A stretch of DNA of 25,350 nt from a virus, in IMG/VR virus record IMGVR_UViG_3300010354_000580, positions 1-25,350 of that record. The stretch is one strand, 5' to 3'. Position 1 is the stretch's first letter, and each line of letters begins with the position of its first letter. Shown piece after piece: positions 19,523 to 22,076 of the stretch. The translations under genes and the position numbers were made by a program. The notes beneath the pieces were generated by a model. That model was not told where the DNA came from. It saw only the letters and a list, made by a program, of their open reading frames with translations, and made no database searches.

Positions 19523-20320
19523 TTGTCAATACCAATTAAATCATACGATACATTAACAGATTTAGAAAAATTATCTTTAGTAGATTTATCTTATTCAAGA
19601 ATGGATACTTACACACAGTGTCCAGCTAAATATTTCTATTCATATATACAGAAAGAACCAAGGCAATTTGCCCCAGCAGCAACTCTTGGAAATATAGTTC
19701 ACGCAGTGTTAGAAAACTGTTTATCAAATGACAGTGAGCTTAGTCTTGATCATATGCGTGATGAGTATGATAAAAATATATCAATTTATGATCCAGATTC
19801 TTTAATACCAAAAGAATTAATTAATGCCGGTGTTCAAATCATAGATGAATTTTACGACGAAAATTCAGATAAAACATTTAACATATATGATAAAGAAATG
19901 CCATTCACTTTAATTATTGGATCTTATAAGGTTATCGGTTTTATAGATAGAGTTGATGTCAAAGATGACATGGTTCATATCGTTGACTATAAAACTGGTA
20001 AATGGGAAGTTAGTGCAAAAGAAGTGCCAAATAATCTTCAGCTAGGAATATACGCACTAGCCGTATCTCAAATGTTTCCAGAAAAACAAGTTTATGCGGA
20101 ATTACACTATCTTAGATCTGGTAGAAAAAAAGGTCATCTTTTTACCCATGAAGACATTGACGGTGTTAAGTCTAAAATAATAGATATAGCATATAAGATG
20201 ATAAGCGATATTAATTATTCGCCTACATCAAACATAAGACTTTGTACTTATTGTGATCACGCAAAATCTGGCGCATGCGGAACTGGCTCATTTAGAATGC
20301 GCAATAATAAATATGGGTAA
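19523..20320 (+). CDS. RecB/Cas4-like PD-(D/E)XK nuclease with Fe-S cysteines
   Basis: The 265-aa protein has a complete RecB-family nuclease core: LSYSRMDTYTQCPAKYFYSY at the front, GNIVHAVLE (H60), GFIDRVDVKDDMVHIVDYKTG with D142, D155 and K157, and NLQLGIYALA (Q173, Y177). Cysteines C33, C241, C244 and C252 match the 4Fe-4S arrangement of Cas4 and AddB. It should be a 5'- or 3'-directed single-strand DNA exonuclease used in recombination or fork processing. The start is TTG 19523, five bases after the previous stop, with GGAG at about 19511-19514. It is the last plus-strand gene before a converging minus-strand gene. Confidence 0.88.
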   Translation: MSIPIKSYDTLTDLEKLSLVDLSYSRMDTYTQCPAKYFYSYIQKEPRQFAPAATLGNIVHAVLENCLSNDSELSLDHMRDEYDKNISIYDPDSLIPKELINAGVQIIDEFYDENSDKTFNIYDKEMPFTLIIGSYKVIGFIDRVDVKDDMVHIVDYKTGKWEVSAKEVPNNLQLGIYALAVSQMFPEKQVYAELHYLRSGRKKGHLFTHEDIDGVKSKIIDIAYKMISDINYSPTSNIRLCTYCDHAKSGACGTGSFRMRNNKYG

Positions 20321-20371: not shown

Positions 20372-20548
20372 TCAGAAATCCTCTACCGGATATTCCTCTG
20401 CATCAGCTACGAGGTCAAAGTCTTCAAACTCTGTAACAATCTTGACCGCTAGATCATGGGTGTAGCCAAGATCTATCATGTCATGAATGATTTCCTCGTT
20501 GATTGTCTGGTGGATACTGTTGATGATTTGGTTCATTGTTGTGTTCAT
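20372..20548 (-). CDS. small acidic protein, the only minus-strand gene
   Basis: The 58-aa product begins MNTTMNQIINSIHQTINEEI and ends DAEEYPVEDF. It is helical and acidic, with a helix-turn-helix-sized central part (DMIDLGYTHDLAVKIVTEFEDF) but no clear DNA-binding face. A perfect -10 box (TATAAT on the minus strand, 20560-20555) ends seven bases before the ATG, so the transcript may begin at the start codon itself. A GGAG lies within those seven bases but is too close for normal use with this ATG; the second Met (codon 5) is a weaker alternative. A terminator follows the stop. Codons favour ATC, GAC and GAG more than its neighbours do. Its function is unknown; its place suggests a regulator or early protein. 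Confidence 0.75.
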   Translation of the reverse strand: MNTTMNQIINSIHQTINEEIIHDMIDLGYTHDLAVKIVTEFEDFDLVADAEEYPVEDF

Positions 20549-20554
20549 GTCTCC

Positions 20555-20583
20555 ATTATACCTTTTTGTTTTTCGGTCCGCAA
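20555..20583 (-). promoter_or_regulatory. minus-strand promoter, possibly leaderless
   Basis: On the minus strand, TTGCGG (20583-20578) and TATAAT (20560-20555) are spaced by 17 bases. The distance from the -10 box to the ATG at 20548 is six bases, which puts the expected transcription start on the A of the start codon. A small inverted repeat GCAA-gttat-TTGC (20580-20592) overlaps the -35 box and could be an operator. Confidence 0.75.
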
Positions 20584-20599
20584 GTTATTTGCAGAATTT

Positions 20600-20628
20600 T
20601 TGTGTTTTTTAATTTTTTATTGTATAAT
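20600..20628 (+). promoter_or_regulatory. plus-strand promoter of the nuclease/sigma-factor operon
   Basis: TTGTGT (20600-20605) and TATAAT (20623-20628) have a 17-base spacer. The start point would be near 20635, giving a leader of about 24 bases with AAGGA at 20648-20652 before ATG 20659. The promoter lies back-to-back with the minus-strand one, the two -35 boxes being only about 16 bases apart. The spacer is a T-rich tract. Confidence 0.7.
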
Positions 20629-20658
20629 GTATGTGTATGACACAGAAAAGGATACACT

Positions 20659-21225
20659 ATGGAGATAGAAGAAGTCAACGCAAAAGAGTTCTTTTTAGAA
20701 AAATCTTCTTTGCGTAAACATCCAAATTTAAATAATATCAGGAACAAATCCGTATCAAAAGCAATCATAGAAGAAGACGGTATTATAACAAGAAAAAAAG
20801 GTAACGCCTACCAATATACTAGAACTGGTTACAGAAAAGATATTAAGCTCAATGTCAGATCTAGTTGGGAAGCTAACTTTGTTAGAGTTTTAAATATATA
20901 TAAAATTGATTTTGATTTTGAACCGCAGGTGTTTACGTTTCCTATAAAACGAGGAACGAAAGGATATACTCCTGATTTTTATTTAAACAAAACAAATACT
21001 TGGGTTGAATTAAAGGGTTATATGGATGATAAAAGTAAAATAAAACTAAAAAGATTTAAAAGGTATTATCCTAAACAATTTGAGAACCTAGTATGCATCA
21101 TAAGTAAATATTCTTCAGACGCAAAAAAGTTTCTAATGGAACTAGAGGTCTCTAAAATCATTTATTATGAAGACATAAAAAATGAGTACGCAAAATATAT
21201 AATAAATTGGGAAGGCAAGATATGA
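20659..21225 (+). CDS. PD-(D/E)XK endonuclease, TnsA / T7-endonuclease-I-like
   Basis: The 188-aa protein has a nuclease core in the usual order: RSSWEANFVRVLN with E71, FEPQVFTFPIKRG, YTPDFYL with D106, and WVELKGY with E117 and K119. A basic helix follows (KSKIKLKRFKRYYP). This layout is shared by phage resolvase-like enzymes and the TnsA nuclease. The N-terminal 60 residues are basic and probably bind DNA. A Holliday-junction resolvase or a nicking role in DNA processing is inferred; no separate resolvase is seen in the window. It is the first gene of the rightward operon and shares ATGA with the sigma-like gene behind it. Confidence 0.75.
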   Translation: MEIEEVNAKEFFLEKSSLRKHPNLNNIRNKSVSKAIIEEDGIITRKKGNAYQYTRTGYRKDIKLNVRSSWEANFVRVLNIYKIDFDFEPQVFTFPIKRGTKGYTPDFYLNKTNTWVELKGYMDDKSKIKLKRFKRYYPKQFENLVCIISKYSSDAKKFLMELEVSKIIYYEDIKNEYAKYIINWEGKI

Positions 21226-22076
21226 GTAGTTATAAGGAGCAATATTATTCTTTGGAAGAAAGCGAAATGCAAAGGCTAATAGCTGGAGCAAAAAAGGGTA
21301 ACTTAAAAGATCAACAACAAATACTAAAAGTGTTTAATAACTTCCTAACAAAGTATGCGTCATTACTTTATAACGGAAAATATAATTTATCAGATTATGA
21401 TATTAGAAGATTTATTTCTTTATTTATAAAAGACCCTTCAACAAGATATGCGTTAATGAAAAACAAACTGTCAAATGCAAACTTAAAAGTGATTAACGAA
21501 TGTATGCGTGGTATACTTTATATGACACAAAGGTATGGAGAAGAAGAAGATATTAGACAGACGGTTGATTTAACATTTTTTCAATGCATTCAGAGGTATG
21601 AGCGAAAAGATTCAGCAAAAGGGCCAATACCTTTTAGTGGTTTTTTGTATAGTTATTTTTTTTATCTCTTAAAAAAGAATGTTGACACATTTCTGATTGA
21701 TCAATTAGGAAGAAAAACTTTTCCATTATTAGCAGATGAGTCTGGTGACGAAGAAGAGGAGCAAGGTGTGATAGGATTTAGGGCAGATCCAATTGAAATA
21801 TCAATGGATGACATGCTTGCAACACAATTAATTGATGAATTTTGGGTACTTGGAGAAAATGTTATGTCACCATTTGATCAGTTAACAATACAAGAAAGAC
21901 AATTAATTAAGTGGAGATATGTTGATGGAAAAAGATCAAGTGAAATTTCTCAAAAAATAAATGAACACCCTAATACAATCAGAGAGCATTTATCTAAAAT
22001 TAAAAACAAAGTCAAAGAATATATTATTGAAATGAATTTAGAAGAATTTATTTATTTGGTAAAGATGGAGAAATAA
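21222..22076 (+). CDS. sigma-70-family RNA polymerase sigma factor
   Basis: From ATG 21222 the product is 284 aa. A region 2-like part lies at about 108-160 (EEDIRQTVDLTFFQCIQRYERKD, then PFSGFLYSYFFYLLKKN). A region 4-like part lies at 221-270 (LTIQERQLIKWRYVDGKRSS, then EISQKINEHPNTIREHLSKIK), with the helix-turn-helix at about 236-262. An acidic stretch (DESGDEEEEQ) replaces a normal region 3. It should direct host RNA polymerase to phage promoters, most likely late ones. ATGA overlap links it to the nuclease before. An in-frame TTG at 21207 is less likely. Region 2 is divergent, so promoter specificity cannot be read from the sequence. Confidence 0.78.
   Translation: MSSYKEQYYSLEESEMQRLIAGAKKGNLKDQQQILKVFNNFLTKYASLLYNGKYNLSDYDIRRFISLFIKDPSTRYALMKNKLSNANLKVINECMRGILYMTQRYGEEEDIRQTVDLTFFQCIQRYERKDSAKGPIPFSGFLYSYFFYLLKKNVDTFLIDQLGRKTFPLLADESGDEEEEQGVIGFRADPIEISMDDMLATQLIDEFWVLGENVMSPFDQLTIQERQLIKWRYVDGKRSSEISQKINEHPNTIREHLSKIKNKVKEYIIEMNLEEFIYLVKMEK

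Follow-up and report, generated by a model that had tools for sequence, protein, structure and literature searches.

Leaderless transcripts are common in actinobacteria, with a TANNNT box 7-12 bp upstream of the start codon (PMC3898074, PMC4633059), and actinobacterial orthologues swap between leaderless (TA-led) and Shine-Dalgarno (SD)-led starts (PMC3160421). In M. tuberculosis, the TANNNT box at 7-12 bp is accompanied by a preference for C at position -1, and genes for growth are under-represented among the leaderless ones (PMC3898074). An RTG start codon has been found necessary for leaderless starts in mycobacteria (PMC4633059). Among phages, lambda cI is a known leaderless gene (PMC3160421), and the cluster O mycobacteriophages (Corndog and relatives) carry the predicted leaderless divergent promoters PL1/PR2 and PL2, where transcription is predicted to begin with the start codon's own first base; of these, PL2 serves a single leftward gene situated within the structural operon (PMC4351075). 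The kind of arrangement described below is therefore already known from the predicted divergent and lone-gene promoters of cluster O. What is unusual here is that extreme codon bias comes together with alternating start modes and with a palindrome at the -35 box that covaries.

The window analysed here is a viral record of 25,350 bases. Its lone minus-strand gene resembles the actinobacterial TA-led genes in having a TANNNT box about 12 bp before the start codon and in the exchange of SD-led and TA-led starts between orthologues; it differs from them in being a phage gene with extreme codon bias, and in having a TTG -35 element consistently spaced by 17 nt, whereas a search for a conserved -35 motif in M. 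tuberculosis had found none. Cluster O shares with it the divergent phage promoters and the lone gene, but the phages are different, only the lone gene is predicted to be leaderless here while the divergent rightward gene has an SD, and the present locus adds SD-led orthologues and a palindrome at the -35. The resemblance to lambda cI, transcribed from PRM, lies in a leaderless phage mRNA and a divergent promoter pair. Lambda cI is a helix-turn-helix repressor; the product here, by contrast, is small and acidic and carries no DNA-binding signature.

That this is the only minus-strand gene in 25 kb, as an earlier note had remarked, is consistent with the list of open reading frames. The gene (20372..20548, minus strand, ATG to TGA) encodes a small acidic protein of 58 amino acids, and its mRNA is probably leaderless. 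Its -10 box, TATAAT (20555..20560, minus), is separated from the ATG by a 6-nt discriminator, GGAGAC, and the -35 box, TTGCGG (20578..20583, minus), lies a 17-nt spacer further upstream; an automatic scan missed this promoter because the -35 box has only three matches out of six. The A of the ATG, at 20548, is the seventh base past the -10 box (20560-20555) and is the putative transcription start, as the earlier note had read it. The GAAA-looped intrinsic terminator that it had assigned to the gene was likewise recovered, at 20346-20327 on the minus strand: the GC-rich hairpin GGGGCCGG-GAAA-CCGGCCCT, followed by TTTTC, begins 25 nt past the TGA and shows compensatory stem changes across relatives. 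An Rfam search gave sub-threshold matches only, at this terminator.

The plus-strand replication and nucleotide genes of the window include those for ribonucleotide reductase (RNR), a DnaB-like helicase, primase, DnaE polymerase, RNase H and dNMP kinase. Convergent with the minus-strand gene is a PD-(D/E)XK (Cas4/RecB-like) exonuclease gene (19523..20320, plus; PF12705, 1e-30), present in 69 of 73 loci. Back-to-back with it stands a rightward promoter, TTGTGT-17-TATAAT (20600..20628, plus; TTGTGT at 20600-20605 and TATAAT at 20623-20628), followed by the SD AAAAGGA (20646..20652) of a gene for a T7 endonuclease I/Holliday-junction resolvase-like nuclease (20659..21225, plus; phrog_9019, 3e-17; PF05367, 2.5e-4) and by a gene for a phage sigma-factor-like protein (21222..22076, plus; phrog_351, 6e-10; Sigma70_r4_2, 1e-5; 70 of 73 loci). 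Both the promoter and the family matches of the two products agree with what had been proposed for this operon. When the nuclease was used to query a phage collection, distant relatives only were retrieved. In one distant relative (L141) the nuclease frame stops after 114 residues, a possible frameshift or truncation.

The nuclease is encoded on 73 related viral contigs, 72 of which have readable upstream DNA. The search of related phages that the earlier note had suggested found the minus-strand gene at the identical divergent position in 71 of these 72. The rightward promoter (TATAAT with TTG at 17 nt) is kept in nearly all relatives, as is an AAAGGA-type motif ahead of the nuclease gene. 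Nearly all orthologues of the minus-strand gene on the nuclease-bearing contigs share the start ATG-AAC-AC, pairwise dN/dS is 0.04-0.16 where computable, and the gene is under purifying selection. Loss of the frame in close relatives, which had been named beforehand as a refutation of the proposal, is confined to one contig of the 72 (L073), where a gap of 253 nt at about position 1932 runs from the last part of the exonuclease gene to within the ATG. The minus-strand gene is thereby lost and both promoters are retained; this contig is >99.8% identical to L054, and the gap could reflect either a genuine deletion or a join made in assembly. In a 193-kb relative (G001), the gene stands alone within an opposite-strand array of ~124 kb by our own gene calls.

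This is a family of freshwater phages, and their hosts are probably actinobacteria. WhiB, by which freshwater phages have been assigned to actinobacteria (PMC6802176), scored above the cut-off in two 193-kb relatives (G001 and G002) and was not found in the eight other records searched, which lends indirect support to the actinobacterial host suggested earlier. The window record, outside this ten-record search, showed no host marker, and one scan of genome contigs found no host genome.

We compared 44 distinct upstream regions of the minus-strand gene, including those of distant members found with single distant members as queries. Thirty of them, the window included, are of a leaderless type, with TTG-17(18)-TAnnnT ending 6-7 nt before the start codon and the TTG present throughout; none of the 30 has an SD motif 3-11 nt upstream. 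The remaining 14 form a sister type: 7-13 nt before the start they have an SD-like motif (AAAGGA or GAAAGG, and in L018 only GAGG), and none of them has the TAnnnT box at the leaderless spacing. The SD of the nuclease gene next door is retained in both groups, so the absence of an SD is specific to the minus-strand gene; in G001, an SD-like match of at least four bases accompanies a start in 205 of 240 gene models. The discriminator is nearly constant in length and free to vary in sequence (GGAGAC, ATTCACC, AGAAGAC, ACAAGTC), and a C directly precedes the ATG in most sequences, including the window. This clean alternation of two modes offers strong comparative evidence for a leaderless mRNA, and the leaderless part of the original proposal is well supported by it and by the spacing in the 30 distinct sequences.

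Aligned by eye, the two forms read GAAAGG-TTACAAT-ATG and AAAAGG-TATAAT-N6/7-ATG, as in the pair L084 GAAAGGTTACAATATG and L076 AAAAGGTATAATATTCAACATG, so that the two start modes are told apart by the 6-7 nt that separate the A/T-rich box from the ATG. In the nuclease tree a single change of mode suffices; since the branch has weak support (61/60) and the outermost rows sit on long branches, we make no claim about the direction of the conversion. Another sequence, L140 (1110-1165), carries both signals and is possibly an intermediate form: it has TTGCAA-17-TATCAT-7-ATG, and also an AAGGAG upstream of an in-frame ATG that shares bases with the -10 box. ATG or GTG stands at the inferred +1 in the window and in all leaderless-type sequences except L099 (5872-5892, minus) and L103, which retain the promoter, with ATT in the place of the start codon and an in-frame ATG partly within the -10 box (TATAATG); their close relative L129 carries ATG instead of this ATT. 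Given the RTG requirement, these two sequences count against a leaderless start, and L140 with its two signals does so as well.

From the window sequence alone, neither the promoter pattern nor the 4-bp repeat at the -35 box (see below) goes beyond chance. The pattern TTG-17-TAnnnT-6/7-ATG occurs once in the window against 1.1 ± 1.0 times in Markov-shuffled windows, and this figure of about one per shuffled window is what speaks for a chance match in an A/T-rich genome. Conservation among relatives gives both elements their significance: the pattern sits at one and the same gene start in 30 distinct sequences and alternates with an SD, which makes a chance match highly improbable.

The start could also lie further upstream. 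On the minus strand, a promoter-like site, TTGACT-18-TATCCT (20649-20678), is found in the nuclease start region, TTGACA-18-TATCCT occurs in several relatives, and sites of the form TTGAC[AT]-18-TATCCT lie ~100 nt upstream of the gene in several clades, the window among them. A transcript starting near 20642, inside the nuclease leader, would have a leader of about 95 nt and make the TATAAT incidental; purine-rich stretches 12-18 nt before the ATG fit such a leader. However, the L061-L076 and L043 groups lack the upstream site and nevertheless keep the -10 spacing. Its TATCCT is the reverse of the nuclease SD and its -35 overlaps nuclease codons, so the site itself may be a by-product, and there is no SD at a workable distance from the ATG. 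Together with the -35/-10/ATG spacing, which is kept despite sequence change, this renders a long leader improbable.

Of all genes examined, the minus-strand gene stands first in its share of C-ending two-fold codons. Its NNC/NNY ratio is 0.58 against 0.17 for the window genes pooled and 0.03-0.30 for the other genes singly; in G001, the orthologue reaches 0.79, the first rank among 235 genes, where the major head protein has 0.57. Strand skew was considered as the cause and rejected: NNG/NNR is raised too (0.61), and the value expected from skew alone is 0.22 (p 1e-4). Codon bias of this kind is the usual mark of translational selection, from which we infer high expression; whatever its timing, the product is probably made in large amounts.

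The 58 residues include 14 Asp or Glu and a single Lys or Arg, giving a net charge of about -13, and the aligned members all have a conserved core and a C-terminal phenylalanine. A three-helix structure is predicted with moderate confidence (pLDDT 74 and 82). Pfam and PHROG searches gave no confident family for the protein, and no helix-turn-helix or repressor match by sequence; the phage collection held no homologue (best match 25% at E 2), and fold searches returned no PDB match at E≤0.001, the weak ones including EF-Ts and RuvA domain III. The UBA/TS-N domain (PF00627), which is likewise helical, was matched weakly by 5 of 28 members (best E 0.001); the window protein differs in falling under the curated cut-off (13.5 bits against 22.4) and in having no fold match at that E-value threshold. 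A protein-binding or DNA-mimic role is our best guess, and a role as DNA-binding repressor appears unlikely.

These properties bear on the suggestion in the earlier note that the product could be a brake on the rightward operon. A switch like that of lambda cI, itself leaderless (PMC3160421), would have the minus-strand product bind the palindrome between the promoters and repress the rightward operon or its own gene, and the divergent promoters, together with the palindrome that covaries over the minus -35 box, speak for it. The product, however, is strongly acidic, with no helix-turn-helix match, and its codon usage is that of a highly expressed gene. A typical DNA-binding repressor is of low abundance, the opposite of what this usage indicates. 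Moreover, the palindrome is absent in a clade that retains the gene (L047-L051/L087/L098), and its loop and centre vary among the outer relatives. We regard a repressor switch as improbable; of the original interpretation, the leaderless start is well supported, on the spacing and the SD alternation, and the brake is not supported.

The palindrome itself, CCGCAA-GTTAT-TTGCAG (20578..20594), overlaps the minus -35 box and has one mismatch, A/C on the plus strand and G.U on the minus strand. The GCAA/TTGC repeat that had first been noticed over the -35 box lies within it (20580-20583/20589-20592); the repeat is indeed present, and although without significance by itself (p about 0.3), it belongs to a palindrome that covaries in relatives. 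Perfect inverted repeats are found in most leaderless-type relatives; they measure 4-8 bp, have their centre 3.0-3.5 bp upstream of the -35 TTG and differ in arm sequence from lineage to lineage (TGCAAC, TCACAAC, ATGCAA, GCTACAAC). The arms pair in 83% of cases against ≤37% in slid controls, and both-sided changes are seen in four of seven pairs; a separate permutation test makes no correction for the relatedness of the sequences. The palindrome could serve as an operator, as a terminator on the plus strand or as an RNA element. Two back-to-back -35 boxes were rejected as an explanation, the distance to the plus -10 box being 17, 25 or 28 nt among relatives. An RNA hairpin in a long minus-strand leader is not favoured: the L061 group lacks the upstream promoter yet has the hairpin, and the L047-L051/L087 group has the promoter and no hairpin.

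As a terminator or insulator, and no operator, the palindrome would form a rightward hairpin that stops antisense read-through before it reaches the rightward promoter. In many relatives a plus-strand T-rich tract comes after the stem, and in the window the U-tract that the GC-rich hairpin of the minus-strand gene has on the plus strand is a poor one. On the other hand, SD-type relatives without the palindrome also have the T-rich tract, the stems are weak, and the deviations from pairing are G.U in the minus sense and A.C in the plus sense, all of which leave this role unlikely.

Taken together, we favour, with a probability of about 0.74, a self-contained, strongly expressed leaderless unit encoding an acidic protein that acts on proteins, with SD-led orthologues in the sister group. 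The gene would be transcribed from its own sigma-A-type promoter to its own terminator, counter to a long co-directional array of phage genes, into an mRNA whose 5' end is the AUG itself. Ribosomes would load on this AUG without an SD, as they readily do in actinobacteria, and the short frame would yield an abundant, very acidic three-helix protein that binds a host or phage protein, for instance in a DNA-mimic or host-takeover role, and not DNA; in the sister group, the orthologous gene would have an ordinary SD-led start. Comparison of the relatives is the basis for the gene, promoter, terminator, spacing, start alternation and codon bias in this proposal. The fuller proposition, that the family is among the most strongly expressed, that leaderless and SD-led starts interconvert by a length change of 6-7 nt, that the -35 palindrome is new and goes with the leaderless form, and that the acidic product is a new host-takeover factor, is a tentative one, and somewhat doubtful.

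Nature here supplies leaderless and SD-led orthologues of one phage gene, at a single locus with common neighbours, on which the cost and benefit of leaderless translation can be tested directly. The unnamed, conserved and probably abundant protein family is also a promising candidate for a role in host takeover, in freshwater actinobacteria that are abundant but hard to culture. The strongest codon bias of its genome falls on the leaderless form, despite the depletion of growth genes from the leaderless set of M. tuberculosis (PMC3898074). Similarly high C-ending codon usage was noted in a cluster of small genes near the contig end of G001 (L111, 437-5042), which are candidates for strongly expressed genes.
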